From positions 1-38,397 of the forward strand of contig JAJZNI010000105.1 in NCBI GenBank assembly GCA_021847925.1: a stretch of DNA of 38,397 nucleotides, read 5' to 3'. The DNA is from a bacterium. GTDB taxonomy: Bacteria; Chloroflexota; Dormibacteria; Aeolococcales; Aeolococcaceae. Numbering within the stretch: position 1 is the first letter of the stretch; each line of letters starts with the position of its first letter. Both the position numbers and the translations under genes were made by a program. The notes under the pieces were generated by a model. The model worked only from the letters and a program-made list of their open reading frames with translations. It was not told where the DNA came from and did not search any database. Positions 22,958-38,326 of this stretch are shown in pieces.

Positions 22958-23155
22958 CTGCAGCGAGGCTCATGCCGGTGATGCCGTCCCTCTGGTGACG
23001 ATCCGTTGACGCCATGGTATCCGCCACGCGTCACTCCAATGTGCAAAGAGCGTGTGACGAGGGTGTTGCCCCGGGTGTGGCGCGCGCTCCGGCCGCCAGA
23101 ATCGGCATGGGAGCGCGGCCCGCAGGCGGTGGCGCACCGATCAGGAGTCTCACCC

Positions 23156-24412
23156 GTGAGCGTCGCTCCGAGCACCCGTCTCGACAACCGGTACCTGGAT
23201 GCGCTGGGCCCGCTGCGCCCGCTGATCGAGGATGACAGCCTCACCGAGATCATGGTCAACGGCCCCGAGATGGTCTACGTGGAGCGCAAGGGCAAGATCC
23301 TCCTCACCGACATCCGCTTCGACGACGACGCCCACCTCCTGCGCGTCATCGACACGATCGTCGCGTCGGTGGGGCGGAGGGTCGACGCGCGCACCCCGCT
23401 CTGCGACGCCCGGCTGCTGGACGGCTCCCGTGTCAACGTGGCCGTCCCCCCGGTGGCGCTGGACGGCGCCCTCCTCACCATCCGCAAGTTCTCGAAGGAT
23501 CCCTACCAGGTCTCCGACCTCATCGGCTTCGGCACGATCACCCAGGAGGGGGCCTCCTTCGTCCAGGCGTGCGTGCTGGCGCGGGCCAACATCCTCATCT
23601 CGGGTGGGACCGGCGCCGGCAAGACGACCCTGCTCAACGTCTGCTCCAGCTTCATCCCCATCGACGAGCGCATCATCACGATCGAGGACGCCGCCGAGCT
23701 GCAGCTGCACCAGGAGCACGTCTGCCGCCTGGAGTCGCGTCCCCCCGACGCCAACGGCGAGGGTCAGATCCGGATCCGCGACCTGGTCGTCAACTCCCTG
23801 CGAATGCGGCCGGACCGCATCGTCGTCGGTGAGTGCCGCTCCGGAGAGGCGCTGGACATGCTCCAGGCGATGAACACGGGGCATGACGGCTCGATGACCA
23901 CGATCCACGCCAACAGCCCGCGAGATGCCCTCTCCCGGCTCGAGACCCTGGTGCTGATGGCGGGCATGGACCTGCCTCTCAAGGCCATCCGCCAGCAGAT
24001 AGCCAGCGCCATCAACCTCATCGTCCAGCTCTCGCGGCTCAAGGACGGGTCCCGCAAGATCACCGCCATCAGCGAGGTGGTGGGGATGGAGGGGGAGACC
24101 ATCACCATGCAGGACATCCTGCGGTTCGAGCCCAAGGGGGCCGACCCGCACACCGGCAAGATCGTCGGTGACCTCAACCTCAGCGGGATCCGGCCCAAGA
24201 TCATCGACCGGCTCTTCGACATGGGGATCCCCCTGCCGCCCCGCCTCGCCCAGCTCTTCCCCGACCGCCGCCAGCTCCTGCAGGGCGGGATCCAGGCGGG
24301 AAGCGCGGGCCCCGCGGCCAACGGGACGCCCGCCGGGGTGTTCCCCGGCGGCGGGCTTCCGCCGGGGATGCCGCCCGCGCCCGGTGAGCCGCCGCGCCCC
24401 TTTGGACGGTGA
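23156..24412 (+). CDS. CpaF/TadA-type secretion ATPase (short form)
   Basis: A 418-residue hexameric ATPase of the type II/IV secretion family, CpaF/TadA branch, which powers assembly of Tad (type IVc) pili. The N-domain contains [19 protein letters not shown]. Walker A is [10 protein letters not shown] at about 148-157, the Asp box is [10 protein letters not shown], and the His box and Walker B region are [20 protein letters not shown] and [14 protein letters not shown]. The C-terminus is a Pro/Gly-rich tail. The GTG at 23156 has GGAG 8 bases upstream. Compared with the second CpaF (25980-27623) it lacks the long Pro-rich N-terminal extension and its helical prelude. No other pilus gene is directly downstream on the same strand; the convergent gene is an EAL protein. 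Confidence 0.93.
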
Positions 24413-24455
24413 CCGGGACGCCCGCGACCTGAGCTGGCGATCGAGGGGGGAGGGT

Positions 24456-24488
24456 GGCCGGCGGCCCCATCTCCGGCGGGCCGCGGCC
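24456..24488. terminator. GC-rich hairpin between convergent genes
   Basis: GGCCGGCGGCCC pairs with GGGCCGCGGCC with one bulged base, between the CpaF stop at 24412 and the minus-strand EAL stop at 24505. There is no T-run. Confidence 0.4.
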
Positions 24489-24504
24489 GGCTCTGAGGTC
24501 GAGG

Positions 24505-25704
24505 CTAGGCTCCCCCGAGGGCGCGCTGTATCGCCCTCTCGTCGACGGGCAGCGCGCTGGGACGGGCGAGCAGGAACCCCTGGCCGTGGGTCACGCCGAG
24601 GTCGCGCAGCACCCTGAGCTCGGCTCCCGTCTCGACCCCCTCGGCGACGATGGTGCTCTGGGTCTCCCGCGCGAAGGCGACCAGGGCGAACGACAGGGCC
24701 CGCCGGGGCCGGTCGCTGTCGATGCCCCGGGTGAGCGAGATGTCGAGCTTGATGATCTCGGGGGCGAGCAGGAGGATGTGACGGAGGCTCGCGAATCCGG
24801 CGCCGGCGTCGTCAACCGCGATCCGCACCCCCGCCTGCCGGAGCGGTCGAAGGGCGCGCTTCAGCGCGTCGTAGTCGCTGACCGCGGCGTGCTCGGTCAT
24901 CTCCATGACCACCCGATCCAGGGGCACGGTGTCCAGCAACCGCGCGATGTCACGGCTCTGGAGGGTCGCCGGGGAGATGTTCAGCGACAGGTAGGCGCCC
25001 GGCGGCAGGGAGGGCAGACCGCAGAGCGCGGCCCGGATCGCCGCGGTCTCCAGCTCGGCGCGCAGCCCGACGGCGTCCGCGTCGTCGAACCACTGCTGGG
25101 GCGTGCCGGAATCGAAGCGGGAGAGCGCCTCCACCCCGCTCACGCGTCCCTGCGCGAGGTCGACGATGGGCTGGTAGACGGGGTGGACGTCCCCGCGCTC
25201 GGTCACCGACCGGATGCGCGCCAGCACGCGGTCCCGCGTGAGCTCCGCCTCCTCCCTGCCGGCGAGCTGCTCGGTGAGCTCGTGGACCACGGTGCTCGCC
25301 ACCTCCGCCGAGAACGCCGATTCGCCGAGCAGGACGCGCTGGATGGTCCGGGTCACCTCGTCCGGCATCGACCCCTTCACCAGGTACGCGCTGGCTCCGG
25401 CGCGGAGCATCTCGAGGATGCTGGCCCGGTCGCCATAGGCCGAGAGGGCCACGATGCGGGTGCCCGGGCTCCGGGCGAGGATGCCCCGTGCGGCCTGCGG
25501 CCCCCCCCCGCCCGGCATCTTGACGTCGAGGATGGCGACGTCGGGATGCTCGCGGGTGGCGGCCTCGATGGCCGTGTCGGCATCCTCGGTCACGGCCACG
25601 ACCTCGATGCCGCCCTCGGACTCGAGCAGCTCGCGCAGCGCGTCGCGGATGCTGGCGTCGTCATCGGCGATCAGCACCCGGGCCGTCACCTCCTGATCGA
25701 TCAT
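24505..25704 (-). CDS. Receiver-EAL c-di-GMP phosphodiesterase
   Basis: A 399-residue protein. Residues about 8-125 form a receiver with Asp14-16, phosphoacceptor Asp60 (AILDVKMP), Ser88 and Lys110. Residues about 172-390 form an EAL domain with the catalytic set intact: EALSRF (Glu192), Asn242 in LNIS, Glu268, the Asp pair 298-299 in DDAGAGF, Lys319, Glu355 in AEGVET and Gln375. It should therefore hydrolyse c-di-GMP to pGpG under control of receiver phosphorylation. A run of nine G codes for Gly-rich residues right after the phosphosite. The start is ATG 25704; the frame is open further upstream to 25857 but that part is Pro/Arg-rich and not family-like. It lies downstream of the second CpaF on the same strand, 275 bases away. 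Confidence 0.9.
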   Translation of the reverse strand: MIDQEVTARVLIADDDASIRDALRELLESEGGIEVVAVTEDADTAIEAATREHPDVAILDVKMPGGGGPQAARGILARSPGTRIVALSAYGDRASILEMLRAGASAYLVKGSMPDEVTRTIQRVLLGESAFSAEVASTVVHELTEQLAGREEAELTRDRVLARIRSVTERGDVHPVYQPIVDLAQGRVSGVEALSRFDSGTPQQWFDDADAVGLRAELETAAIRAALCGLPSLPPGAYLSLNISPATLQSRDIARLLDTVPLDRVVMEMTEHAAVSDYDALKRALRPLRQAGVRIAVDDAGAGFASLRHILLLAPEIIKLDISLTRGIDSDRPRRALSFALVAFARETQSTIVAEGVETGAELRVLRDLGVTHGQGFLLARPSALPVDERAIQRALGGA

Positions 25705-25979
25705 CGCGCCGGGCCCCGGTCGGGACGGGCACGGGCGCCTACCCCCGACGGTGGCCGCTCGGTCCCCGGGCGGAGGGCACCGCGCGGTCCCACGTCCACG
25801 CGGGCGCGGGCCCGGATCGGGCGGAGGGGGCGGCGGGACGCGCCCGCCGCTGCGCACGTCGACACGGTCGATGTGAGTCTAGGCGGGGCCCCCGGGCGCC
25901 GCCCGGACGTTCTCCGAACGGAACCGCTTGGTGAGCGGGCCGTCACCGCCTTGGCGGTCCCTTCACACGGAGGCCGGTC
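25705..25979. other. 275-base gap between CpaF and EAL genes
   Basis: This same-strand gap holds small inverted repeats (ACCGCC-AA-GGCGGT near 25944-25957 and TCCG-AA-CGGA near 25913-25922) but no supported gene. The repeats could be a weak terminator for the second CpaF gene or an operator for the EAL gene. A promoter for the EAL gene was not recognised; TAGACT on the minus strand near 25876-25881 is a possible -10. Confidence 0.4.
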
Positions 25980-27623
25980 TCAGCGACCGGCGGCGAAGAT
26001 CTCCTCGGGGACCGCCTCGCCCTCGGCACGAAGGGTGTCCAGCAACCTGGGCATCACACCCGTCGCCACCATCTCGCCGAGCACCCGACCGCTGTCCGCG
26101 TCCACGCCGCGCTGCCGGAAGGCGAACACCTCCTGGGTCTCGACCTCGCCATCCCTGGTCCCCAGCACCTCGGTGATGCTGACGATCTTGCGCGTCCCGT
26201 CGCGGAGTCGGGACTGGTGGACGATGAGGTGCAGCGCGGACCCGATCTGGTCACGGATGGCTCGCGAGGGCAGCTCCGCCCCGGCCATGAGCACCATGGT
26301 CTCGAGACGGCTGACGCAGTCCCGCGGGTTGTTGGCGTGCAGGGTCGTGAGCGAGCCGTCGTGCCCGGTGTTCATCGCCTGGAGCATGTCCAGCGCCTCC
26401 CCGCCGCGGCACTCCCCCACCACGATCCGGTCCGGGCGCATCCGCAGCGCGTTGATGACGAGGTCACGGATCGTGACCCGGCCACGCCCCTCGACGTTGG
26501 CGGGGCGCGTCTCCAGGGTCACCACGTGGTCCTGCCGAAGCTGCAGCTCGGCGGCGTCCTCGATGGTGACGATGCGCTCGTCCTCGGGAATGAAGCTGGA
26601 GAGGATGTTGAGGGTGGTGGTCTTCCCTGATCCCGTCCCCCCGGAGACGACCACGTTGAGACGGGCCCGGACGCAGGAACGCACGAAGGCCAGCATGTCC
26701 GGGGTCAGCGACCCGTAGCGGAGCAGGTCGTCGGCGGTGATCGCCTCCTTGGCGAACTTGCGGATGGTGACGGTGGGTCCGCGCAGCGCGAGCGGCGGGA
26801 TGATGACGTTGACGCGCGATCCGTCCTTGAGCCGGGCGTCGACCATCGGCGAGGACTCGTCCACGCGCCGGCCCACGCTGCTCACGATCCGGTCGATGAC
26901 CTGCATCAGCTGCTCGGTGCTCTCGAAGGCCACCGGGCTGCGGCTCAGCTTGCCGTGCTCCTCCACGTAGATCTGCTCGGGCCCGTTGACCATGATCTCG
27001 GTGACCTCCGGGTTGGCCAGCAGCTCCTCCAGCGGGCCGAGACCGAGAACGTCGTGCACGAGAGTCTCGGTGACGCGCTGGCGGTCCTGGCGGCTCAGGG
27101 TCATTCCCTGCTCCGCGATGACCTCGCTGACCAGCTCCGCGATCTTCTGCTGGACCACCTCGGCGGGGGCGGAGTCCGTGTTGCCGGCGAGCTCCTCCAC
27201 CAACCGCTGGTGCACCTGGGTGCGCAGCTGGCTGTAGGCCCCCGCCCCCATGCCCCTGCCGTGAGCCGGCCGGGAGATCCCGGTGCGGGTGAGGAGCGAC
27301 CCCGGACGCATCGGGTCGGTGGCGGTGCCGGCGTCGGTGCCGCGGCTCAGGAGGCCGGGAGCCGCCGGAGCCGGACGGGCATAGGCGGGCGGGGACGGGG
27401 GCTGCGGCCGGGGCGCGGGTGGGGCCGGCGCCGCCGGGGGGGCCAGCGAGGCGCGCAGCGACCAGGGGGGCTGCCCGGGAGCGCCCTCGCGGGACGCGCC
27501 CGGCGCCGGTCCGGCGGAGGCCGGCACCTGGGGCGGCGCCGCTCCCGGGCCGTCGCCGGCCCCGGGCGGCGGCGTGGCCGTGCCCTCCTCGGCCTTCCGC
27601 TGCACACGATCCAGAAGCGACAT
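25980..27623 (-). CDS. CpaF/TadA-type secretion ATPase (long form)
   Basis: A 547-residue CpaF/TadA ATPase. Residues about 1-120 are Pro/Ala/Gly-rich and likely disordered; about 125-200 form the helical N1 domain (QLRTQVHQRLVEEL...). The core has [19 protein letters not shown], Walker A SGGTGSGKTT near 325-334, [16 protein letters not shown], and [20 protein letters not shown] followed by NTGHDGSLTTLHAN. It is a paralogue of the ATPase at 23156 and is the more canonical CpaF. It starts at ATG 27623 with GGAGGTGGG just upstream and a good promoter at 27687-27715. It is divergent from the SipW-substrate operon. Together with the CpaB, TadB and TadC genes at 32604-35468 it likely forms the inner motor of a Tad-type machine. 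Confidence 0.94.
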   Translation of the reverse strand: MSLLDRVQRKAEEGTATPPPGAGDGPGAAPPQVPASAGPAPGASREGAPGQPPWSLRASLAPPAAPAPPAPRPQPPSPPAYARPAPAAPGLLSRGTDAGTATDPMRPGSLLTRTGISRPAHGRGMGAGAYSQLRTQVHQRLVEELAGNTDSAPAEVVQQKIAELVSEVIAEQGMTLSRQDRQRVTETLVHDVLGLGPLEELLANPEVTEIMVNGPEQIYVEEHGKLSRSPVAFESTEQLMQVIDRIVSSVGRRVDESSPMVDARLKDGSRVNVIIPPLALRGPTVTIRKFAKEAITADDLLRYGSLTPDMLAFVRSCVRARLNVVVSGGTGSGKTTTLNILSSFIPEDERIVTIEDAAELQLRQDHVVTLETRPANVEGRGRVTIRDLVINALRMRPDRIVVGECRGGEALDMLQAMNTGHDGSLTTLHANNPRDCVSRLETMVLMAGAELPSRAIRDQIGSALHLIVHQSRLRDGTRKIVSITEVLGTRDGEVETQEVFAFRQRGVDADSGRVLGEMVATGVMPRLLDTLRAEGEAVPEEIFAAGR

Positions 27624-27981
27624 CCCACCTCCACTCCTGCGGAGTCCACTCGGCCGCGGCGCTGGTGCTGCCGGGCCCCGTTCCGAAGCCTAGCTCTTCC
27701 AGGGAACACGTCCAACCAGCAGATTGCAACGATCATGTCGAGAGGCTCGTCATGGCTCCGCGCCAGGCCTCAGCCGTCACGGTTCTCCCGGCCCTCCCCC
27801 GGGACAACGCTTCATATAGATCAAGCGCGTTCACAGCTTCAGATGCCCCTCGTTACCCGGCTGTGGCCACTTCCGCCGGGAGATCGTGAGACCGCCCCCC
27901 CTAGCCTTCCCAGTGGCGTCTAGTGCATTTGAACTACCTGAACAGAACGGTCAGAAGGCACGGATAGAAGGAACGAGGATC
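27624..27981. other. 358-base divergent regulatory region
   Basis: This separates the long-form CpaF gene from the first SipW-substrate gene. Its middle part (about 27715-27850 and 27915-27980) is clearly less GC-rich than the genes. It contains the CpaF promoter, TTCACA at about 27829-27834, a TATAGAT-containing stretch near 27812, and GTTACCCGG near 27853. No plus-strand promoter with both hexamers and normal spacing could be fixed. No gene is supported here. Confidence 0.5.
27687..27715 (-). promoter_or_regulatory. Promoter of the long-form CpaF gene
   Basis: On the minus strand TTGGAC and TAGGCT are separated by exactly 17 bases. The -10 lies 63 bases before the ATG at 27623, giving a leader of about 55 bases that contains the ribosome site. 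The hexamers are imperfect but the spacing is ideal and the region is AT-richer than its surroundings. Confidence 0.55.
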
Positions 27982-28605
27982 ATGGAGAAGCGTACGAGCA
28001 AGCGATCCCTGAGGGTGGCCCTGGTCCTGGGCGCCGCCATCGCCGGCACCGCCCTGGTCGGCTGGGGCGGGTTGGCCGCCTGGCAGGCCTACAGCGACAA
28101 CGCCGGCAACAGCGTGAGCGCCGGCACCCTGAGCCACACCAACAACGGCTGCGCCTCGTCCAACACGCTGACCGCCGCGACCGGCAGCGGCGCGTGCAAG
28201 GCCATCATCACGGTGGCCAACGCCGACTACAACTGGGCGGGCCAGACCGGCACCGTCACCATCACCAACACCGGCAGCCTGACCAGCACCTTCTCGATGG
28301 GGCTCGCCAGCGCGCCGGCGGCCAGCCCCAGCACCAGCGGCATCTGCAGCGATCTCCAGGTGACCGTCGCCGGCAGCACGGGCCACTACTACGTGGGGTC
28401 CGCCACGGCCCCGGTGTCGCTGGGCAGCGTCGGCACGGTGGCCGTGGACTCGGCGGGCAACGGCGGAACGACCACCGCCACCTGGGCGGCCAGCGCCACC
28501 AACACCTTCACCTTCGACGTCACGCCCACCAGCGCCTGGAGCACCGACAGCACCGTCGCCGGCGCGTCGTGCTCCTTCGACATCCTCTGGACCCAGCAGG
28601 GCTAG
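27982..28605 (+). CDS. Secreted TasA/camelysin-like protein, SipW-type substrate (first)
   Basis: A 207-residue exported protein. A basic start (MEKRTSKRSLR) leads into one hydrophobic segment (about 11-36) ending GWGGLAAWQAYSDNAGNSVS, followed by AGTL: the pattern of SipW-dependent signal peptides (short h-region, then D/N-rich motif and GTL). The mature part is rich in Thr, Ser, Gly and Asn and looks all-beta, with TVTITNTGS and ATNTFTFDV strands. Four cysteines (57, 72, 122, 197) could form two disulfides outside the cell. The ATG at 27982 has a GAGGA ribosome site. A strong terminator follows. TasA and camelysin family proteins form surface fibres or matrix proteins; fibre formation here is inference. 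The next gene is a paralogue and the peptidase gene follows. Confidence 0.8.
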   Translation: MEKRTSKRSLRVALVLGAAIAGTALVGWGGLAAWQAYSDNAGNSVSAGTLSHTNNGCASSNTLTAATGSGACKAIITVANADYNWAGQTGTVTITNTGSLTSTFSMGLASAPAASPSTSGICSDLQVTVAGSTGHYYVGSATAPVSLGSVGTVAVDSAGNGGTTTATWAASATNTFTFDVTPTSAWSTDSTVAGASCSFDILWTQQG

Positions 28606-28626
28606 TCCTGACGCCATGATCTGAGG

Positions 28627-28664
28627 GGGCCGGGCGGAGCGCCTCCGTCCGGCCCTTCTCGTCT
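28627..28664 (+). terminator. Rho-independent terminator after the first SipW substrate
   Basis: GGGCCGGGCGGAG pairs with CTCCGTCCGGCCC (13 bp, one G-U) around a 3-base loop, followed by TTCTCGTCT. It begins 21 bases after the stop. As it lies inside the probable operon it may make the first protein more abundant than the downstream products. Confidence 0.8.
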
Positions 28665-28783
28665 CCACCGGCAACGACCGGGGCGAGCGCGGCGCCGCCC
28701 CTCCCAAGAGCGCCGCCACCGCCTCCTCCGAGCCCACGGCCCGCGAGGCAGCGCCGCCCACCACGTCATTCGGAGGTTTGCCC

Positions 28784-29434
28784 ATGTCCATCGTCAGCCG
28801 GAGCCCCAGGCGCGACCGCAAGGTCCGTGCCGGGATGGTCCTGGTCCTGGTGCTCGCCGGCACCGCCCTGATCGGGTGGGGCGGGTTGGCGGCGTGGCAG
28901 GCGGTGACCCAGAACAACGGCAGCACCGCCATCACGGACGGTGTCCACATGCAGAACGTGGCCACACCGACGGGTGGCACGAGCACCACCTGCACGGACC
29001 AGACCTCGCCGAGCGGGTGCGGCGTGATCTTCACGGTCAGCAACATCACGCCGGGTTACGGCCCGTCCGCCGTCGGCACCGTCGCCATCACCAACACCGG
29101 TAGCGAGCAGGCGACCTTCGACGTCTCCCTGAAGTCCGCGGCGGTGACCGGCGCCGACTCCTTCTGGAACGCGTCGACGGACACCACCCTCTGCTCCGAC
29201 CTGCAGCTCACCGTCACCGACGGCGAGACGAGCCCGGTCACGGTCTACACGGGGTCGCTGAGCGCCATGAGTGCGACCGGGATCGCCGTCAAGGACAGTG
29301 GCGGCTCGGCGATCTGGCCGTCGGGCGCCACCAACACCTTCACGTTCACGCTGTCGCTGCCGACCAGCAGCCCCAACACGGACGAGGACTCCACCTGCAC
29401 CGCCGACTACACCTGGGGTGAGAGCGGCGCCTGA
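28784..29434 (+). CDS. Secreted TasA/camelysin-like protein, SipW-type substrate (second)
   Basis: A 216-residue paralogue of the preceding protein. The signal region (about 16-41) ends in GTALIGWGGLAAWQA, nearly identical to the first copy. The mature part again has four cysteines (70, 79, 137, 205) at matching places, the shared blocks VAITNTGS, CSDLQLTV and GATNTFTFTL, and a Thr/Ser/Gly-rich beta composition. It has a longer acidic C-terminus (NTDEDSTCTADYTW). The ATG at 28784 follows GGAGG with a 7-base spacer. The gap before it (178 bases) contains the terminator of the first copy. It is probably a second fibre or tip/anchor subunit made by the same export route; which is major and which is minor cannot be read from sequence. 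Confidence 0.8.
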   Translation: MSIVSRSPRRDRKVRAGMVLVLVLAGTALIGWGGLAAWQAVTQNNGSTAITDGVHMQNVATPTGGTSTTCTDQTSPSGCGVIFTVSNITPGYGPSAVGTVAITNTGSEQATFDVSLKSAAVTGADSFWNASTDTTLCSDLQLTVTDGETSPVTVYTGSLSAMSATGIAVKDSGGSAIWPSGATNTFTFTLSLPTSSPNTDEDSTCTADYTWGESGA

Positions 29435-29485
29435 CGCCCTGCCCACCTGAGCCGAGGGGACGGCGGCCAACCCGCCGCTCCCACC

Positions 29486-29521
29486 ACGACCGCCGGACCG
29501 GGACGCCCCTCCGGCGGTCGT
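29486..29521 (+). terminator. Hairpin terminator after the second SipW substrate
   Basis: ACGACCGCCGGA pairs perfectly over 12 bp with TCCGGCGGTCGT around a 12-base loop, about 52 bases past the stop. The tail (CTCGCG) is not T-rich, so efficiency is uncertain. Confidence 0.6.
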
Positions 29522-29657
29522 CTCGCGTCCGGGCCCACCCGCTGCCGCAACAGCTTCGTTGCCCGCCGTTGCACGGGAGCCTCGGGATCGGGCACGACAA
29601 TTGAGGCGAGCTGGCCGGGCCGCCGTGGAGCCGTCGATCAGCCGCAGGGGTGTGCGC

Positions 29658-30836
29658 ATGGGCAACGCGGGGATGCTCCTCCCCGAGGAGCTGCAGGACC
29701 TGGTGAGGGACGCCGTGGCGGAGGTCTCGACCGCCGCCGGCGCCCTCGCCCGAGAGGTCCCGCGCCCGCGCCCGGGCGCAGCCGCGCGAGAGCGGCGGGG
29801 CGCTCCCCAGGCGACCATCCTGCGGCTGCCCGCCGCGCCCCCACCCCCCCCGCCGCCCCCGCCGGCACCCCCGGCGACCGCGCCGCCCTCGCCGGCTCCG
29901 GGGACGGCCGGCACGCCGCACGGCCGCGCCTTCCTGCATCGCCTCGCGGTGCCCGCGGCGGTGCCCGCGGTCCGCTACCCGGCCCGCACCCGCAGGGTGG
30001 CCGTGCCCTGCCACCGCCCGTCGCCGCTGGACGCACGGCGGGTCACCCGGATGCTCCGCATCGCCGTGCCCACAGTGAACCTGGGCACGCCCGCCTCGCT
30101 GGTCGTCAGCGCGGGCCCACCCGCACCGCCCCGGGCCGCGCCGGCGCCGTCTCCCCCCCCACCGCGCGCGCCTGCCGCGGCACCGGTGACGGCCGCCCCG
30201 CCGGCCAGGGCACCGCAGTGGCTCCCGGCCGCTTCGCCCGAGCCGGCGCTGGAGGAGCGCGCCGAGCCGCCGGCACCCAGCTGGCGCGCGGTCGGCGGCC
30301 ACGTGACCAATCTCCTGATCGCCGCGGCGCTCGGCCTGGTCGCCACCTTCTGCGCCATCGTGGTGGGGCTCGTGGTCACCGGCCACCACCTCGAGCAGGT
30401 GGTCACGGGCAGCATGCAGCCGACCATTCCGATCGGTTCCCTGGTGGTCACCGAGCGCGTGCCGGTGAGCCAGCTCCAGGTGGGGGACATCCTGGTCTTC
30501 CCCAACCCCGACAACGGCAAGCAGACGATCGTCCACCGCATCGTGTGGCTCAGCCACGACTCCCAGGGAGACGTCCTCGTCCGCACCAAGGGTGACTACA
30601 ACGCGCTCCCGGACAACTGGACCGTCAGCCGGCCCGCGGCCAGCGACGCCGACATCGTGCACTGGATCATCCCCGGAGGGGGGACCCTCGCCGCCGGGTT
30701 GCAGGACGCCGGCATCTGGGGCCTGATCGCCCTGGTTGCGGGCGGCATCGGCTGGTACGGGCTGCACAAGGTGCGCCAGATCCTCCGCGAGGATGACGAG
30801 CCCGACGCCGAGCCCGACGCCGGAGAGGCCTCATGA
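29658..30836 (+). CDS. SipW/ER-type signal peptidase I with long Pro-rich N-terminus
   Basis: A 392-residue membrane peptidase of the S26B (SipW, archaeal/ER) type. After a Pro/Ala-rich segment of about 210 residues with a run of nine Pro comes a membrane helix (about 217-243), then VVTGSMQPTIPIGS with the nucleophile Ser252, and IVHRIVW with His293 in place of the bacterial Lys, and TKGDYNALPD with Asp313. The Ser-His-Asp set is the SipW signature. A second helix lies near 355-375 and an acidic tail ends the protein. It should cleave the two preceding SipW-type precursors. SipW of Bacillus is about 190 residues, so the N-terminal extension is unusual. Start ATG 29658 is chosen after AGGGG; ATG 29673 is possible. 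It overlaps the next gene by ATGA. Confidence 0.88.
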   Translation: MGNAGMLLPEELQDLVRDAVAEVSTAAGALAREVPRPRPGAAARERRGAPQATILRLPAAPPPPPPPPPAPPATAPPSPAPGTAGTPHGRAFLHRLAVPAAVPAVRYPARTRRVAVPCHRPSPLDARRVTRMLRIAVPTVNLGTPASLVVSAGPPAPPRAAPAPSPPPPRAPAAAPVTAAPPARAPQWLPAASPEPALEERAEPPAPSWRAVGGHVTNLLIAAALGLVATFCAIVVGLVVTGHHLEQVVTGSMQPTIPIGSLVVTERVPVSQLQVGDILVFPNPDNGKQTIVHRIVWLSHDSQGDVLVRTKGDYNALPDNWTVSRPAASDADIVHWIIPGGGTLAAGLQDAGIWGLIALVAGGIGWYGLHKVRQILREDDEPDAEPDAGEAS

Positions 30837-32359
30837 CCGTGGACACGCTCGGCATGATCCGGCGGGGCTGGCAGGACAGTGCCGCCACCATCGCGCCCCG
30901 GGTCCCCGGGCTCACCGACCTGCTGGACAAGCGCCTCGCCGAGGCGGTGCGGCTCGGCACGCTGGACGAGACCTCGCTCCTCGCCATCGTGGACGCGGCC
31001 ATCCAGCTGACCGCGAACTCGGGTGCCGTCGAGCTGGTCCCGGCGCTCTCGAAGCGCCTGCGGCGTCACGTGTACGAGTACCTGCTCTCGCTCGACGCCG
31101 CAGCCGATGAGCAGGCGGGAGCGGTGTCCGCCTCCCAGCCGTACGCTCCCGAGGGGGGAGGTCTGCTCATCGGGGCCGACGAGGTCGCCGCCCTGCGTCG
31201 CGACGGCAGCGGGAAGCCGTCGCCCTCCGGGGCGCCCCCGCGGTCCATGGGCCTCGCTCCCGAGCGCGCGGCCGCCCGCAACGATGCCTCCGCCGAGCCC
31301 CCGAACCTCCCCTCCCCCGCCGCCGAGCATGGCAGGGGGGCGGTCCTGCCTCCCCCGGGCGGGTGGGCTCCGGCGCCCTCGCCCGCCCCGCGCTTCAGCT
31401 TCCACATCGGCGACCCCGAGGACCTGCTGAGCAGCAGGACACCGGCGAGAGAGGAGTCCGATGCGCCCACGCTGCCCGAGCTCTTCGCGCCCTCCGACCT
31501 GCAGCCGCCGGCTCCCGATGCGGCACCGCGCCGGGCCTCGTTCGCCGACCCCTCCACCTGGCCGCGCCCGCTCACCCCCACCCTGAGGGGAAACCGCGAA
31601 CAGCCGCCGGCGCAGGCCTGGGACGCCTCCGACGAGCCCTCGCCAGCAGCGGACCTGGAGCCCGAACCGCCTGCCGAGCCGGAGCCGGAACCCGACGCGC
31701 GGGGACTCCGGGACCTGGCGTGGCCCCCCCCCACGCAGGATCTCGCGGCCAACCCTTTCGACGACGGCCATGCGCTGCCCCAGCCACCTCCGGCATCGCC
31801 CGGGCCCGAGGCGGCGGCCGGACCCCGGCCGGCCTCGCCGGAGGACGGCAGGGATCCCGTGGAGCTGCACCTCACGCCGGCCGCGGACAGCACCGCAGGG
31901 TGGTCGCCCGCCCCGGCGGCGGAGCGCGACATCACTCCCCTGCGCGCCTCGGTCGAGGAGCGGCTGCGCAAGAAGCGCTGCGACGATGCGGCCGCCCTGC
32001 TCCAGCAGGCGGCACAGGAGCTTGGTGGCGAGGCCGTCGCGGAGCTGGCGCTCGACGCCGGCGATCGCTGCCGGACGCTGGGCAAGCGCAACGCGGCGCT
32101 CAACTGCTACCTTGCGGCGTCGCGGGCCGACCCGGTCTATGAGGCCCCCCTGGCACGGCTTGCAGACATCTGCATCGACGACCAGGACATCGACCTCGCC
32201 GTCTCCTACCTGGAGCGGATCGCACGGCTGACCCGGCTTCGCGGTGACCAGCGCGGGTCGATGCGCATCTATCGCCGGATCGCCTCCATCGCTCCCTACC
32301 GCGACGACGTGCTGGAGATGCTGATGCGGGCGCAGACCGGCGGCCACATCGACGGCTGA
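30833..32359 (+). CDS. TPR-like protein translationally coupled to the signal peptidase
   Basis: A 508-residue protein. Residues about 1-90 form a helical domain (WQDSAATIAPRVPGLTDLLDKRLAEAV...). About 100-360 are Pro/Ser/Glu-rich and probably disordered. The last 140 residues form TPR-like helix pairs (AAALLQQAAQELGGEAVAEL, RNAALNCYLAASRADPVYEA, DLAVSYLERIARLTRL, GSMRIYRRIASIAPYRDDVL). There is no signal peptide or membrane segment. Its ATG overlaps the peptidase stop (ATGA), so both are made together and probably act together; a cytoplasmic scaffold that links the peptidase to the motor is one idea. A C9 run lies at 31724-31732 in the disordered part. I do not recognise an orthologue. Confidence 0.65.
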   Translation: MTVDTLGMIRRGWQDSAATIAPRVPGLTDLLDKRLAEAVRLGTLDETSLLAIVDAAIQLTANSGAVELVPALSKRLRRHVYEYLLSLDAAADEQAGAVSASQPYAPEGGGLLIGADEVAALRRDGSGKPSPSGAPPRSMGLAPERAAARNDASAEPPNLPSPAAEHGRGAVLPPPGGWAPAPSPAPRFSFHIGDPEDLLSSRTPAREESDAPTLPELFAPSDLQPPAPDAAPRRASFADPSTWPRPLTPTLRGNREQPPAQAWDASDEPSPAADLEPEPPAEPEPEPDARGLRDLAWPPPTQDLAANPFDDGHALPQPPPASPGPEAAAGPRPASPEDGRDPVELHLTPAADSTAGWSPAPAAERDITPLRASVEERLRKKRCDDAAALLQQAAQELGGEAVAELALDAGDRCRTLGKRNAALNCYLAASRADPVYEAPLARLADICIDDQDIDLAVSYLERIARLTRLRGDQRGSMRIYRRIASIAPYRDDVLEMLMRAQTGGHIDG

Positions 32360-32603
32360 GCGCCGGTCGGCCCCGGCACAGGTGTCGTCGCGACGCGCCG
32401 GGTGCATGCGCGTGCACCGTGATGGCGCCGTGCGCGGGGCCACGCGGGGGGCGCGCGAAATCGCACCCATCTGTTACCGGAAGGCGACAGCCGCGTGGTC
32501 GGGGTGGATCACACTCGGCGTGCAGGCATCGCCTGAGACCGATCGCCGTCCGCGCCGGCGGTGATCGGGCGTGACCGCGGCGCAACCACCCAGAGGTCAG
32601 TAC
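32360..32603. other. 244-base intergenic region before the CpaB-like gene
   Basis: This contains a small perfect hairpin GGTGCA-TGCGCG-TGCACC at 32401-32418, a patch GTTACCGGAAG at 32473-32483 that is repeated exactly upstream of the kinase gene (14446-14456), and no recognisable riboswitch. I looked for c-di-GMP-I/II landmarks because of the EAL gene and pilus genes and did not find them. Confidence 0.4.
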
Positions 32604-33500
32604 GTGGCGATCCCTTCCAACAAGCCCCAGAACCGCATTTTGCTCGTTGGCGGCATCGTCTTTGCGCTGCTCGCCGGCGTCGTCGTCTTCCTTGCGGTCA
32701 ACAGGACCTCATCGAGCCCGGGCACCTCCGCGCCGAGCCTGTCGGTGGTGACCGCCCGGACCAACATCCCGGCGGGGAGCCTGATCAGCCAGTCCGACCT
32801 CGGGGTCACCTCCGTGCGCCAGGCTCCCGTGGCCGGATACTACCCGCTGACCAGCGAGATCGAGGGTCACACCGCCGCCCAGGCCATCGCCAGCGGAACC
32901 GTCATCACACCGGAGATGGTGAGCAGCGGGGCCGTGGGGACGGGCGGGACCGGGCCCGCCACCGGGGCCTCGGTGTTCGCCCACCCGATCCCCGACAACT
33001 ACGCGGCCCTCGCCATCCCCACGAGCCTCAACACCGCGTACACGTCGGTGGACCAGATGACCGTGGGCTATTACGTGCAGCCCGGTGACCAGATCGACAT
33101 CCTGGCTCGGGTCGGCGCCCCCGCGCCGGCCAGCAGCGCCAACTTCGGATACCTCTTCCAGGACGTCCCGGTGCTGGCCGTCGGCTACGCGTCGAGCACG
33201 GCCGCGAGCCCGAACGCCGGCGCCACCCACACCACCCTCCCGGCTCCCACCTACCTGGTCGTCGCCATGCCCTACAACGAGGCCGTGCAGATGACCGCCA
33301 TCCTCACGGGGGGCGTGGAGACCACCAACGGCGGACCCGCAGACATGGTCCTCAAGTACGTGCTGCGGCCCACCGACGAGTACGGCACCTGGGCCAACAA
33401 CACGAGCAAGACCGGCGTCACCTTCAGCCCCAAGACCCTGGGCGGCGTCGCCACGGTGAGCCTGTCCGGGTCCACCACGTACGTGGGCGCGGCCGGGTGA
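32604..33500 (+). CDS. CpaB/RcpC-like SAF-domain pilus assembly protein
   Basis: A 298-residue protein with a short basic start, one membrane segment (about 11-34) and an extracytoplasmic SAF domain (about 45-105: VVTARTNIPAGSLISQSDLG, then IEGHTAAQAIASGTVITPEM). The rest is a beta-rich domain (YVQPGDQIDILARV, YLFQDVPVLAVG, YLVVAMPYNEAVQMTAILTGG) typical of CpaB/RcpC. In Tad systems CpaB supports pilus biogenesis at the outer face of the inner membrane. I chose GTG 32604 because AGAGG lies 7 bases upstream; an in-frame GTG at 32571 has a weaker site. TadB and TadC genes follow on the same strand (45-base and 3-base gaps), forming an operon. There is no secretin gene with it. Confidence 0.82.
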   Translation: MAIPSNKPQNRILLVGGIVFALLAGVVVFLAVNRTSSSPGTSAPSLSVVTARTNIPAGSLISQSDLGVTSVRQAPVAGYYPLTSEIEGHTAAQAIASGTVITPEMVSSGAVGTGGTGPATGASVFAHPIPDNYAALAIPTSLNTAYTSVDQMTVGYYVQPGDQIDILARVGAPAPASSANFGYLFQDVPVLAVGYASSTAASPNAGATHTTLPAPTYLVVAMPYNEAVQMTAILTGGVETTNGGPADMVLKYVLRPTDEYGTWANNTSKTGVTFSPKTLGGVATVSLSGSTTYVGAAG

Positions 33501-33545
33501 CGCTCGGAACGGGCATCAGGGTATCCGTGGAGTAGGTCACAGCCG

Positions 33546-34529
33546 ATGACGTCGTTCCTGCCCCTGCTGGCCGCGGTGCTGGTCGCGTGCACCCTCCTCT
33601 GCTGGGTCGGCCTGATCATGGCCCGGGGAGGCTCCGAGGCTGACGAGGTGGCCCGCCGCCTGAGTGTCTTCATGGGCGGGGGGACGCAGCCCGCGGCCCC
33701 CGAGCGCCCCCGCACCGGCAGCCCGCTGCGCGACCTGCTCAACGCCTTCACCGACGCCGTCAACCCCCTGCTCGCCCGCGGCTCGTATGCGGGCCGTCTG
33801 GCGGAGGACCTCCAGAAGGCCGGGCTGCGCATGAAGACGTCCGAATGGATGCTGATGGTGGTCGGCCTCGGCGTGGCCGTGGGCGCCCTGATCGGGCTCC
33901 GCTTCGGCACCGTCTTCGCGTTCATTCCCGGGCCGATCGTGCTGTGGATCCTGAGCGGCTTCTTCCTGCGCTTCCGTCAGGCGCACCGCACCCGCGCCTT
34001 CGAGGCGCAGCTCGGTGACACCATCATGCTGCTGAGCAACGCCCTGAAGGCGGGCCTCTCCTTCGCCCAGGCCATGAGCACCGTCGCCAAGAACGGCACC
34101 CCGCCGATCTCCGAGGAGTTCGCGCGGGCCACCCGGGAGATCGCCCTGGGCATCCCGGTCGACGAGGCCCTGCAGCACATGGTGGAGCGCAACAAATCCG
34201 AGGACTTCGACCTGATGGTGACCGCGGTCCAGATCCAGCGCTCGGTGGGAGGCAACCTGGCCGAGATCCTCGACACCATTGCCTTCACGATTCGCGAGCG
34301 GGTGCGCATCCACGGCGAGATCCGCACCCTCACCGCTCAGGCCAGGATGTCAGGTCTGATCATCACCCTGCTTCCCGTCGGGCTCGGCGTCTTCATGTTC
34401 TTCCTCGAGCCGACGTACTTCAGTCCCATGGTGAACCAGACCCTCGGCTGGATCATGCTGGGGCTTGCGATCTTCAGCATCATGATCGGAAGCGCCCTGA
34501 TCCAGAAGATCGTCAGGATCAGGGTGTAG
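33546..34529 (+). CDS. tadB: TadB-like type II secretion F-domain protein
   Basis: A 327-residue polytopic platform protein. Hydrophobic segments lie near 5-25, 100-125 and 128-145, and two more near the C-terminus (about 270-290 and 302-322). Between them is the T2SSF domain with LGDTIMLLSNALKAGLSFAQ, DEALQHMVERNKSEDFDLMV and QIQRSVGGNLAEILDTIAFT. TadB pairs with TadC to form the inner-membrane base on which CpaF/TadA acts. The ATG at 33546 follows GGAG at a fair distance. It is 45 bases after the CpaB-like gene and 3 bases before tadC. Confidence 0.93.
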   Translation: MTSFLPLLAAVLVACTLLCWVGLIMARGGSEADEVARRLSVFMGGGTQPAAPERPRTGSPLRDLLNAFTDAVNPLLARGSYAGRLAEDLQKAGLRMKTSEWMLMVVGLGVAVGALIGLRFGTVFAFIPGPIVLWILSGFFLRFRQAHRTRAFEAQLGDTIMLLSNALKAGLSFAQAMSTVAKNGTPPISEEFARATREIALGIPVDEALQHMVERNKSEDFDLMVTAVQIQRSVGGNLAEILDTIAFTIRERVRIHGEIRTLTAQARMSGLIITLLPVGLGVFMFFLEPTYFSPMVNQTLGWIMLGLAIFSIMIGSALIQKIVRIRV

Positions 34530-34532
34530 GCG

Positions 34533-35468
34533 ATGCTCGCCGCACTCGCCGGCACCCTGACCGCGGTCGCGCTGCTCTTCATCGTGCTCTCGCGCCGGGC
34601 GGCACGCTCGCCCCAGGCCGACCTTCTCGAGGCCCGGCTATCCCAGTACACCGAGGCGGGGCGCATCGTCCACAGCCTGGCCGAGGTCGAGATGACGCTG
34701 CCCTTCTTCGAGCGCGTCCTCCGGCCCACGCTCGACCGCTGGGGACGGCGGCTCACCGCCCGCAACAGCGCCCAGCGCACGCAGGCGCTTCAGGAGAAGC
34801 TCAACCTCGCGGGCAGGCCCTGGGGGCTGACCGTGGGCGGCTTCCTGGTGCTGAAGATCATCTCCCTGATCGTGCTGGGCGTCATCGGGGTCGGGGGCAG
34901 CCTTCTCGTGCTCCATCCTGCTCAGCTCCCCCTCGTCCTGGTGGGTCCGGTCGTCGGTCTGGTGCTCGGCTACCTGCTCCCCGACGCAGCCCTCTCCCGG
35001 CTGATCCGCCAGCGCCAGACGGATATCCTGCTCGCGCTCCCATCGGCCCTCGACCTGCTCACCGTCAGCGTCGAGGCGGGGCTGGGCTTCGACGCCTCCC
35101 TCGGCCGGGTGGCCGAGAAGCAGCGCAACGCGCTCTCCGCCGAGTTCGTGCAGGTGCTCAACGAGATCCGGCTCGGCAGGCCGCGCGTCGAGGCTCTGGA
35201 TGACATGGCCCGGCGCAACAAGGTGGACGAGCTCAACGGCTTCATCCAGGCGGTGATCCAGTCGGAGCAGCTCGGCGTCGGCATCGCCAACGTCCTGCGC
35301 ATCCAGTCGGAGGAGATCCGCCGCCGCCGCCGGCAGCGGGCCGAGGAGGCGGGCCAGAAGGCGCCGCTCAAGATGCTCTTCCCCATGGCGTGCTGCATCT
35401 TCCCGACGCTCTTCGTCGTCCTGCTGGGTCCGGCCGTGCTCACCGTCATCCAGGATTTCGGCCACTAG
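34533..35468 (+). CDS. tadC: TadC-like type II secretion F-domain protein
   Basis: A 311-residue platform protein. Membrane segments are near 3-20, about 100-125 and 128-150, and a final one near 285-305. The T2SSF domain has LLALPSALDLLTVSVEAGLG, FDASLGRVAEKQRNALSAEF, ALDDMARRNKVDELNGFIQA and EQLGVGIANVLRIQSEEIRR, followed by KAPLKMLFPMACCIFPTLFV, the usual TadC ending. It starts 3 bases after tadB. Its stop lies only 2 bases from the stop of the convergent gene at 35471, within a perfect 10-bp palindrome. No TadD, TadE or pilin gene follows. Confidence 0.93.
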   Translation: MLAALAGTLTAVALLFIVLSRRAARSPQADLLEARLSQYTEAGRIVHSLAEVEMTLPFFERVLRPTLDRWGRRLTARNSAQRTQALQEKLNLAGRPWGLTVGGFLVLKIISLIVLGVIGVGGSLLVLHPAQLPLVLVGPVVGLVLGYLLPDAALSRLIRQRQTDILLALPSALDLLTVSVEAGLGFDASLGRVAEKQRNALSAEFVQVLNEIRLGRPRVEALDDMARRNKVDELNGFIQAVIQSEQLGVGIANVLRIQSEEIRRRRRQRAEEAGQKAPLKMLFPMACCIFPTLFVVLLGPAVLTVIQDFGH

Positions 35469-35474
35469 CGCTAG
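35465..35474. repeat. Perfect palindrome holding both convergent stop codons
   Basis: CTAGCGCTAG at 35465-35474 contains the tadC TAG (35466-35468) and, on the other strand, the TAG of the gene at 35471. The two coding regions end 2 bases apart, so transcripts of at least one must run into the other. Confidence 0.7.
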
Positions 35475-36319
35475 CCGGACCGGACGGCCTCGAGGGTGGT
35501 GATGGCGCTGGCGAGCCGGCGTTCGAATCGCGTCCGCCACCGAATCCTCAGGACCGGGCTGGAGCGATAGGCGGCGGGGCCGGGGAGGGCATCGCGGCGC
35601 ACCGCGTCCGCGAGTTGGGCCAGCTCGGGCTCGAGCTCGATGAGCCCGAGCTGCGCGGCGACACCCACCGCCGCGCCCACGCGGCTCAGCTCGCCGGAGC
35701 GCAGCCAGTCGTGCAGGGCGCCGACCAGACCCTCGCGGCCCTCGTCGATCACGGAACGCGCATAGGCGAGGAGCTCCGCCTCCAGCCGCTCACCCTCGGT
35801 CTCGCTGCGGCGCTCGAAGGCGGCCAGGATCGCGTCGCGCGCCCCCTGGTGCGCCAGGACGGCCGCCAGACCGGGGGACGAGCGGCCGAGCAGGAGCTTC
35901 TCGAAGGGCGTGAGCTCCACGTAGCCGATTCGCTCGGCGGCGATGGACACGATCCAGGGCGTGCCGTCGTGGCGAAGCAGGCAGAGGTTCTCGGGCCGGG
36001 ACGGCTGCCGCCACGCGTACAGACCGGGGGCTTCCACCAGGACCGTCAACGCCGCCGGACCGAAGCCGTAGCGCAGACGGCGGACGCCACCGCTCTGGGC
36101 CTCGGACCGCAGCTCTCCCCGGAGGCGGCTCAGCACCTCGCGGCCCTCGGCCTCCAGCTCGCGCGCCGTGTCGACGCTCAGGATCAGGGTCTCGCACTGG
36201 GAGCGGGCGCACGCCAGCAGGGCGCGATAGTCCTCCCCGGTGGGCTCGTCCACCAGGTCGTACGTCTTGCGGCCCGAGACGTCGACCCCGCCCAGGCGGG
36301 AGATGAAGCTCTTCTGCAT
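35471..36319 (-). CDS. Conserved-looking soluble protein, unknown
   Basis: A 282-residue protein starting MQKSFISRLGGVDVSGRKTY. The N-terminal half is mixed alpha/beta (LLACARSQCETLILSVDTA, RRLRYGFGPAALTVLVEAPG, PENLCLLRHDGTPWIVSIAA); about 150-250 are helical (TPFEKLLLGRSSPGLAAVLA and following); the end is basic. There is no signal peptide, membrane segment or nucleotide-binding motif. I do not recognise it. ATG 36319 is the first residue with convincing coding character; GTG 36334 is an alternative, and TACCAT (minus strand, about 36351-36356) may be its -10. It is convergent with tadC and divergent from the CvpA-like gene. A link to the Tad machine is possible only by position. Confidence 0.65.
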   Translation of the reverse strand: MQKSFISRLGGVDVSGRKTYDLVDEPTGEDYRALLACARSQCETLILSVDTARELEAEGREVLSRLRGELRSEAQSGGVRRLRYGFGPAALTVLVEAPGLYAWRQPSRPENLCLLRHDGTPWIVSIAAERIGYVELTPFEKLLLGRSSPGLAAVLAHQGARDAILAAFERRSETEGERLEAELLAYARSVIDEGREGLVGALHDWLRSGELSRVGAAVGVAAQLGLIELEPELAQLADAVRRDALPGPAAYRSSPVLRIRWRTRFERRLASAITTLEAVRSG

Positions 36320-36466
36320 CGCTGAGGCGAGCACGCTGGTGCCCTGGCGCGATGGTAGCAGGGGCAGGCGGGGGGCACGGCGGCGCCGGGCCGCGGCGCG
36401 GCGTGCCCCCCACAACACCTCCGTCACAAACCCGTTGACGCCCGCGTGATTCTGCCGGCGCCATGC

Positions 36467-36472
36467 TACGTT
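36467..36472 (+). promoter_or_regulatory. Candidate -10 (TACGTT) for leaderless CvpA-like gene
   Basis: TACGTT ends 7 bases before the GTG at 36480, in a short AT-richer patch. TTGACG occurs at 36435-36440 but is 26 bases upstream, too far for a normal -35. Confidence 0.4.
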
Positions 36473-36479
36473 CGCTGCG

Positions 36480-37067
36480 GTGACAGGTTACGGACTGGAC
36501 GAGGCGGCCGCCGATCTCGTCCTCATCCTCATCGTCGGCGTCAACAGCTACGTCGGGTGGCGCTTCGGGCTTGTGCGCCGCGCCATCGCGGTCGTCGCCG
36601 TCTTCGCCGGGGCGCTGGCAGCCACGTACATCGGCAACCCGGTGGCGACCCTGGTCAGGCCCGACGACCTCTACGCCAACGCCTGGTGCTTCGTCGGCAT
36701 CTTCGCGATCGTGCTGGTGATGATCGAGATCCTGGCGGCCCTCTACGGGGAGCAGCTCAAGGGGATGGTGACGCTGGTCTTCGATCGGGTCACCGGGCTC
36801 CTCGCCGGTGCCGCGGTCGGCCTTCTCGAGGCCGGCGTCCTCTTCCTGGTGGCCCAGGCCGTTGCCGACGTCCCGGCGACGGCGGCGATCCCCGTGCCCT
36901 CCGGCCACCAGCAGGTCGCGGTCGCCGTCGACCACGGGCTGCTCACCCAGCTGGTCGTGAGGCTGGAGCCCGGGATCCAGGCGCTCCTCGGGCCGGCGCT
37001 CCCCGGCAGCCTCTCCGGCCGGTTCGCCGAGCCCACCGCCGCCGTCACCGGCTCGCCCGCCCCCTGA
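36480..37067 (+). CDS. CvpA-like membrane protein
   Basis: A 195-residue protein with four hydrophobic segments (about 12-27, 32-51, 68-90 and 105-127) and a C-terminal tail of about 65 residues. The N-terminal NSYVGWRFGLVRRAIAVVAV fits the CvpA/colicin V production family pattern (Asn, Gly-Trp, Arg-Gly then a helix). CvpA proteins are conserved inner-membrane proteins whose biochemical role is not settled; they affect envelope integrity and colicin V export. The start is GTG 36480 with no ribosome site and a -10-like hexamer 7 bases before. The next gene on the other strand ends 60 bases downstream. Confidence 0.65.
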   Translation: MTGYGLDEAAADLVLILIVGVNSYVGWRFGLVRRAIAVVAVFAGALAATYIGNPVATLVRPDDLYANAWCFVGIFAIVLVMIEILAALYGEQLKGMVTLVFDRVTGLLAGAAVGLLEAGVLFLVAQAVADVPATAAIPVPSGHQQVAVAVDHGLLTQLVVRLEPGIQALLGPALPGSLSGRFAEPTAAVTGSPAP

Positions 37068-37127
37068 TGGTGGGGAGGGCGTCCGCCATCCCCCGGGCGG
37101 GAGGCGGCCCCGTCGCGCCGTCGCCGG

Positions 37128-37517
37128 CTACGCGGGGACCGTCTGATCGCTCGCGAAGAAGGACCTGACCACCGATCCCAGCCCCACGAGGTTGAACGGC
37201 TTGGTGATCAGATGGTTGGCACCCGCGAGGCGGGCCCGCTCGACGTCGTCATCACCCGAGAGGGCGCTGAACATCAGCACCGGGATGTCCGCGGTCGCCG
37301 GGTTGCCGCGGATGCGCCGGCAGGCCTCGAGCCCATCCATCCCCGGCATCATGATGTCCAGGATGATCAGATCGGGCCGCGCGGTCTCGACGTCGCGGAG
37401 GCCCTCCTCCCCGTTGGAGGCCGTGCGCACCTCGTAGCCCTCGATCCCCAGGTACATCTGCACGATGTGGAGCAGGCGCGGGTCGTCGTCGACCACCAGG
37501 ACGCGTCGCTGGCTCAT
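37128..37517 (-). CDS. Receiver-only response regulator (second)
   Basis: A 129-residue single receiver domain. The acidic residues are Asp10-12 (VVDDDPR), the phosphoacceptor is Asp54 in LIILDIMMPGMDG, the switch residue is Ser84 in MFSAL, and Lys106 lies in ITKPF. There is no output domain. Such proteins act as phosphate-dependent binding switches, for example on pilus motors or in phosphorelays. ATG 37517 has GGAG 9 bases upstream. It lies 110 bases downstream of the Cys/His-rich gene on the same strand and converges on the CvpA-like gene. It is distinct from the receiver at 9434. No kinase is adjacent. Confidence 0.9.
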   Translation of the reverse strand: MSQRRVLVVDDDPRLLHIVQMYLGIEGYEVRTASNGEEGLRDVETARPDLIILDIMMPGMDGLEACRRIRGNPATADIPVLMFSALSGDDDVERARLAGANHLITKPFNLVGLGSVVRSFFASDQTVPA

Positions 37518-37627
37518 CGCGTCCGCTCCGCGAGGGGCGGGCAGCGGCGAGCGGGAGAGGGGGTTGGCTTCATGTCGCGGTTGTCCATTCTGAGGGTCCG
37601 GGGCACGCTGGGCGTGGCGATCGCGGA

Positions 37628-38326
37628 TCAGGATAGTTGAGGAGGGGCCGCACCGGGCCGGGAAGCCGGCATGGAGGCCTCCTCCGGGCCCCGACCTCGC
37701 TCGCGGTCGATCCCCTTGCGGATTATGCTGCAGAGGCGCCGATCGAAGTCCCTGCGTCGCTGAGCGTCGACCTCCGCGGGCGGCTGTGCCCCGTGCAGCC
37801 GCTGCACGATCCACGGAGGGGCGAGGCGCTCCACGGTTCGCGAGTTGACCCGGACAGCGACCTCGGCGTCCGCGCACTCCTCGACGACGAGGGCGACCCG
37901 CAGCGACCATCCCGTCCGATCGACGACCTTCCAGGCACGCTCCCAGGCACGGCGCCGGTCGCTCCCCGTGAACGCCGGGTAGACGGGGTCGGTGACGATC
38001 TGCGCCTCGCCGCCCAGAGCGGCCTCGCCGAGGAGGAGGTCGCGCACATCGGCATCGACCTCCCGAGCGACCCAGCTGACCAGCGAGGGGGCCCGGTTCT
38101 CGAGGTCCGGCATCGGCGTCGCGCTGGAGACGAGCCCGACCGGCAGGGCGCTCACCACCCCGGCGTGCCGCCGGCAGTAGACGTGCCCCGCGATCACGAG
38201 GCGATGGTCCGGGCACCACGCCGTGCTGCAGGCGCGCCCTCTGCGGTCGACGTACTCGCAGCTCAGCCCCACGGAGCTGCCGCACCCCGGCTGCGTGCAG
38301 GGAAGCTCTCCCCGCCGCTCCGCCAC
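37628..38326 (-). CDS. Cys/His-rich (zinc-binding-like) protein, unknown, start uncertain
   Basis: At least 232 residues. The N-terminus has a Cys/His array: Cys10, 15, 23, 33, 38, His41, Cys51, His54, in the order C-x4-C-x7-C-x9-C-x4-C-x2-H-x9-C-x2-H, which looks like a cross-brace or B-box-type zinc module binding two metals. The next part (about 80-215) is mixed alpha/beta with WVAREVDADVRDLLLGEAAL and WSLRVALVVEECADAEVAVR. The tail is Pro-rich. No enzyme motif is seen. The frame stays open from GTG 38326 to the window edge, so the true start may lie outside. A receiver-only gene follows 110 bases downstream. Function unknown. Confidence 0.6.
   Translation of the reverse strand: MAERRGELPCTQPGCGSSVGLSCEYVDRRGRACSTAWCPDHRLVIAGHVYCRRHAGVVSALPVGLVSSATPMPDLENRAPSLVSWVAREVDADVRDLLLGEAALGGEAQIVTDPVYPAFTGSDRRRAWERAWKVVDRTGWSLRVALVVEECADAEVAVRVNSRTVERLAPPWIVQRLHGAQPPAEVDAQRRRDFDRRLCSIIRKGIDRERGRGPEEASMPASRPGAAPPQLS

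Follow-up and report, generated by a model that had tools for sequence, protein, structure and literature searches.

Does the motor of a Tad pilus serve the substrates of a SipW-type signal peptidase, or do two surface systems share one stretch of chromosome? The question is raised by a locus in a MAG from a group of soil bacteria without cultured members; its named relatives are Candidatus Dormiibacterota. The window, by which we mean the whole stretch of 38,397 nucleotides analysed here, is the entire contig C59 of this 188-contig, 87% complete MAG. A first-pass annotation had described two SipW-type precursors, a peptidase, a TPR protein, CpaB, TadB and TadC, and a divergent CpaF, with neither Flp pilin nor prepilin peptidase in sight, and had proposed that the Tad motor serves the SipW substrates or that two surface systems are regulated together. 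We think it likely that the locus joins two systems, an ordinary Tad pilus and a separately controlled SipW module, with sipW coupled to tad.

Gene content of the locus and the probable position of the pilin gene

Gene calls, order and strands between 27,982 and 35,468 were all re-derived as noted in that annotation, whose gene content and order stand. The wider span 23006-38326 holds two TadA/CpaF ATPases, a response regulator with an EAL domain (RR-EAL), the two SipW-type precursors, the S26B signal peptidase, TPR, CpaB, TadB, TadC and three conserved locus genes (Table 1). The divergent CpaF is thus present, but the second ATPase of this type, TadA1, had been missed; its orthologues, 67-86% identical, adjoin tad genes in a tad neighbourhood conserved class-wide. 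An RR-EAL orthologue, 70% identical, holds the same position in G045. Elsewhere in the window, a 571-aa protein (9918-11633) with no family match has homologues that adjoin flp in members of the class from other genera and families, and may be tad-related. No relatives of the locus were found on viral contigs.

Table 1. Features of the locus, with positions in the window
Feature	Position	Strand	Evidence
TadA/CpaF-type ATPase, TadA1	23006..24412	+	PF00437 E 3e-62, TIGR03819 E 1.5e-91
Response regulator with EAL (c-di-GMP phosphodiesterase-type) domain	24505..25857	-	PF00072, PF00563
Second TadA/CpaF-type ATPase, TadA2, divergent to the substrate genes	25980..27623	-	PF00437 E 5e-66, TIGR03819 E 1.4e-100
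Conserved upstream element, model R1	27849..27936	+	Recurrence before substrate genes
SipW-type substrate 1, 207 aa from ATG, four Cys	27982..28605	+	Conserved Cys; AF2 model
SipW-type substrate 2, four Cys, without upstream element	28784..29434	+	Conserved Cys; AF2 model
Two strong GC-rich hairpins (29457-29482, 29486-29521)	29457..29521	+	Between substrate 2 and sipW
S26B/SipW-type signal peptidase	29658..30836	+	TIGR02228 66.7 bits, PF10502, conserved Ser/His/Asp
TPR protein of the tad locus	30833..32359	+	Upstream of cpaB also in relatives without SipW
CpaB/RcpC-like protein	32571..33500	+	SAF E 4e-10, TIGR03177 E 7e-14 (below cut-off), PF16976 E 1e-5
TadB (T2SSF)	33546..34529	+	PF00482
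TadC (T2SSF)	34533..35468	+	PF00482
Conserved tad-locus protein, function unassigned	35471..36427	-	Syntenic in relatives with or without SipW
ColV/CvpA-like membrane protein of the tad locus	36480..37067	+	PF02674 E 2e-13; syntenic
Cys-rich conserved tad-locus protein	37628..38326	-	Last gene before flp in g13 relatives, before the contig end here

Four related genomes (G022, G012, G017 and G045) preserve the gene order from the substrates through to the Cys-rich gene, and in each of them genes for a canonical Flp pilin and TadZ come immediately afterwards. The window stops right after the Cys-rich gene, just short of the flp position. Contig C37 of the same genome, read in reverse, starts a few hundred bases before a Flp pilin gene, and its order Flp-TadZ-RR-RR/EAL-rplA-rplK-nusG is the one that follows the window's last gene in G022. 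C37 is therefore very likely the contig following C59, a join drawn from synteny, since the two share no exact sequence overlap. Synteny with loci L026, L146, L147 and L154 likewise places flp in the same locus, across a physical join that is not sequenced.

The genome also encodes one A24 prepilin peptidase, a second Flp-like match and twelve TadE matches. TadA, TadB, TadC, Flp, prepilin peptidase, TadE and TadZ are thus all in the genome, and the system is a Tad (type IVc) system. The statement that neither Flp nor prepilin peptidase is visible holds for the window and fails for the genome, where both genes exist, flp on C37; it reflects an assembly edge, and a pilin-less Tad was rejected. 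When a contig ends where a pilin gene would be expected, the absence of that gene says nothing in favour of a hybrid machine. The first of the two systems would accordingly be a complete monoderm-type Tad pilus, with two TadA, TPR, CpaB, TadB and TadC, then Flp and TadZ past the contig edge, using its own Flp and its own prepilin peptidase encoded elsewhere.

Two other loci of this genome carry related genes. One is a second CpaB-TadB-TadC set (L170, region of G000:C181:47672), about 44% identical to the window's TadB. The other (L036:10686-12985, G000:C81) holds a third T2SSE ATPase, about 30% identical to the window's TadA proteins, with a weakly TadB-like neighbour, which would make it one more type IV filament or secretion locus, a divergent one.

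The SipW-type peptidase and its candidate substrates

The peptidase passes TIGR02228 (66.7 bits, cut-off 51.85) and PF10502 (31.4, cut-off 22.9). Ser252, His293 and Asp313, which the first-pass annotation named correctly if counting starts at the ATG at 29658, do not vary in any of the homologues aligned. The protein is an S26B (SipW/archaeal-type) signal peptidase. Against the Bacillus SipW equivalog model NF046067 (cut-off 190 bits) it reaches 47.1 bits only; judged by such scores, it belongs to the same superfamily as Bacillus SipW and is not the Bacillus equivalog. Ahead of its first TM helix lies a Pro/Ala-rich N-terminal extension of ~210 aa. The catalytic Ser is preceded by ~230 or more residues in tad-linked SipW proteins and by roughly 60-110 in those not linked to tad, the start of the G046 protein being uncertain. 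Homology between the extensions of the g1 (this genome) and g8 proteins was rejected, their similarity being no better than that of shuffles.

The two precursors are, as first described, paralogous four-Cys proteins; they are 38% identical to each other, and the four Cys are kept in every homologue aligned. AlphaFold predicts beta-sandwich cores for them with moderate confidence (pLDDT ~85 for the substrate 1 core, 77.9 for substrate 2). In the substrate 1 model a low-confidence segment follows the signal, which is compatible with donor-strand exchange but is not evidence for it. No Pfam or NCBIfam model was matched significantly by the substrates. Their identity as TasA or camelysin was rejected by sequence and fold: PF12389 (Peptidase_M73/camelysin) hit one of 20 substrate members, at E 0.18; Foldseek of the models returned nothing at E<=0.001, TasA and other solved structures included; and archaeal CanA came up only at E 0.05-0.16. 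In the absence of a significant match to TasA, camelysin or a solved structure, a fibre role is something that we infer. Nor do the substrates look like type IV prepilins: they have no Flp_Fap match, and with the class III signal model TIGR04205 the best E among members is 0.0036, substrate 1 scoring 6.9 bits against a 65-bit cut-off.

Of the genomes tested with a substrate profile, 11/11 that carry this SipW group had members, as against 0/7 that bear tad and lack the group. The occurrence of the substrates therefore tracks SipW and not Tad. Copies also lie far from tad, one on contig C31 of this genome and one or two per g13 genome. The C31 gene (L216:4880-5600, G000:C31) is a third, unlinked SipW-type substrate gene of this genome, and at three g13 loci (L174:6420-9755, L175:2793-6125 and L176:6432-9757) the substrates are tandemly expanded to four copies. 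In the second of the two systems, then, the peptidase would cleave a number of small beta-sandwich proteins that have four Cys and a SipW-type signal peptide; these proteins would be exported and would probably build a surface fibre or coat.

Conservation of the linkage between sipW and tad

TadB occurs in 98/110 genomes of the class and a related SipW catalytic domain, distant ones included, in 14/110, so that most of the class has Tad without SipW. A cassette of 2-4 substrate genes and sipW, placed between the divergent gene and TPR, is found in 9 genomes of 3 genera: this genome (g1), all seven g13 genomes, and G007 (g8), whose order was read across a contig break (substrate x3-sipW-TPR N-terminus ends C75; TPR C-terminus-CpaB-TadB-TadC starts C95). 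G006 and G046, from two other genera, carry a related substrate-sipW pair away from tad. TPR, CpaB, TadB and TadC stand together without SipW in g5, g6, g7, g10, g11 and g14. TPR is therefore a tad gene, and its membership of the SipW system was rejected; in g14 and g5, which lack the cassette, it adjoins a divergent EAL gene. G047 carries two similar versions of the locus (L152 on C92, L153 on C90), possibly a strain mixture.

The linkage is thus conserved but clade-limited. The conserved adjacency that the first-pass annotation had suggested searching for exists; it had also named two findings that together would count against a joint system, a tad set with Flp and prepilin peptidase, which was found, and the absence of conserved SipW linkage in relatives, which was not. 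The reported coupling of TPR to the peptidase gene takes the form of an ATGA at 30833-30836, where the sipW stop and the TPR start overlap. A four-base overlap was present at 9/9 junctions read in g1 and g13 (ATGA; GTGA in two), and in g8 the two genes do not overlap.

One explanation for such linkage is a chance neighbourhood, kept because too little time has elapsed. The TadB/TadC tree groups g1 with g13 in a single clade, with support 100 for its separation from the rest, and eight of the nine genomes may thus represent one event. However, g8, which stands apart in this tree with weak support and is weakly placed in the SipW tree, has the same order, substrate x3-sipW-TPR-CpaB, and gene order is unbroken between g1 and g13, whose TadB proteins have drifted apart to 78% identity. 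We regard chance as unlikely. The cassette may have been gained once, long ago, with later losses, or gained twice, histories that cannot be told apart.

The proposal that the SipW substrates serve as accessory or alternative subunits of a filament, exported or assembled by the Tad motor, draws on the adjacency kept in three genera, on the overlap at every g1 and g13 junction read and on the long cytoplasmic extension confined to tad-linked SipW. It has to contend with canonical Flp, TadE and prepilin peptidase genes in the same genome, with the scarcity of SipW among the Tad-bearing members of the class, with SipW and substrates that also occur away from tad, with orphan substrates on other contigs, and with substrates that reach no prepilin model at cut-off. 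The proposal went unsupported, and we hold it to be highly improbable.

Linkage in three genera and an extension seen only in tad-linked SipW could still mean more than neighbourhood, the extension being the sole hint of physical coupling to Tad. One may speculate that tad-linked SipW, with its extension and its tandem translation with TPR, is docked to the Tad base, and that SipW-type proteins matured there decorate or anchor the pilus. Such an arrangement, which strikes us as quite improbable, would, if true, combine a SipW fibre system with a type IVc pilus in one hybrid. Under the preferred reading of two systems at one locus, what joins SipW and Tad is operon architecture: the SipW module immediately precedes the tad TPR gene on its 5' side, an arrangement in which translation of sipW would run on into the first gene of the tad operon, and we infer that the two are co-transcribed.

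Control of the substrate genes and relation to known systems

Every substrate-1-like gene is preceded by a version of the ~90-bp stretch that lies 5' of substrate 1. In the window its core is the dyad-like TAGTGCATTTGAACTA at 27921-27936, 44 nt before the substrate 1 ATG. The core pattern TAGTGCATTTGnnCTA has 28 sites in eight genomes (g1 and g13) and 0 in the 102 others, and a reversed control pattern has 0 occurrences in 110 genomes. When positions were compared with substrate profile matches, 28/28 sites (for short, TAGTGCATTTG sites) proved to be immediately upstream of substrate genes, at a distance of 29-44 nt from the ATG where measured. Strong genome-wide matches to model R1 are confined to g1 and g13 as well, each directly before a linked or orphan substrate gene. 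The C31 gene has a perfect-dyad copy, TAGTGCA-TT-TGCACTA, and in the g13 tandem arrays each substrate-1-like gene has its own element. Substrate 2, the copy adjoining sipW, has none upstream, and in all 110 genomes the element is absent before flp, sipW and tad genes, TPR and cpaB included. Because covariation is almost nil, an RNA structure was rejected and the element is treated as a DNA site, best read as the promoter/operator of a putative substrate regulon.

The hairpins between substrate 2 and sipW are also present in g13 and have no T tract (z -2.4 in the window, -4.7 to -6.9 in g13). A sigma-70 promoter and a T-tailed terminator were looked for and not found, and no c-di-GMP riboswitch or other Rfam RNA was found at the locus.

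These data bear on the second idea of the first-pass annotation, that of joint regulation. Substrates, sipW and tad might form one surface-adhesion programme of separate machines answering to one signal, for example c-di-GMP. The sipW-tad overlap and the EAL genes divergent to the locus in the window, g13, g14 and g5 are consistent with this, and there is a precedent in Clostridium perfringens, where a type IV pilin controls sipW-bsaA expression (PMC7395162). Against it stand the private element, which marks substrates and is missing from flp, sipW and tad genes, the position of the hairpins between the substrates and sipW, and the lack of a c-di-GMP riboswitch at the locus. The idea is thus partly supported, shared regulation being possible in part only, and we regard a common programme as possible but doubtful. 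It would be a refinement of our two-system reading, compatible with it save for the common control. In the two-system reading the substrate genes would be under separate control, all except the sipW-adjoining copy carrying a private element, as do the unlinked copies. Against separate control, substrate 2, lying beside sipW without an element, could be read with sipW.

In the literature searched, no study turned up that ties SipW loci to Tad loci, and none devoted to the type IV pili of Dormibacterota. What is new here is the synteny history and the substrate element. The locus is an example, from an uncultured phylum, of a Tad operon to which a module for SipW-type secretion is joined. Dispersed over the genome and dedicated to substrates, the element offers a sequence handle with which to list them and to seek their regulator.

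Maturation by SipW of small secreted, polymerising proteins is established for Bacillus TasA. For C. perfringens BsaA the same is supported (PMC7395162). The module described here resembles the Bacillus SipW-TasA/camelysin operons and C. perfringens sipW-bsaA in having an S26B-type peptidase beside small secreted substrates, the SipW-type signal context GGLAAWQAYTQNAGN..AGTL and several substrates per peptidase. It differs in that its substrates have four conserved Cys and no significant Pfam, NCBIfam or PDB-fold match, in that sipW overlaps a tad operon gene, and in that the substrates are dispersed and share an upstream element. The pilus genes in turn resemble Gram-positive Tad/Flp (type IVc) loci (PMC3244431) in their TadA, TadB, TadC, CpaB/RcpC, TadZ and Flp, and in that TadE and the prepilin peptidase are encoded at other sites of the genome. 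Unlike those loci, they include two TadA ATPases and extra TPR, CvpA-like and function-unassigned genes, and in three genera they have a SipW cassette ahead of the operon.
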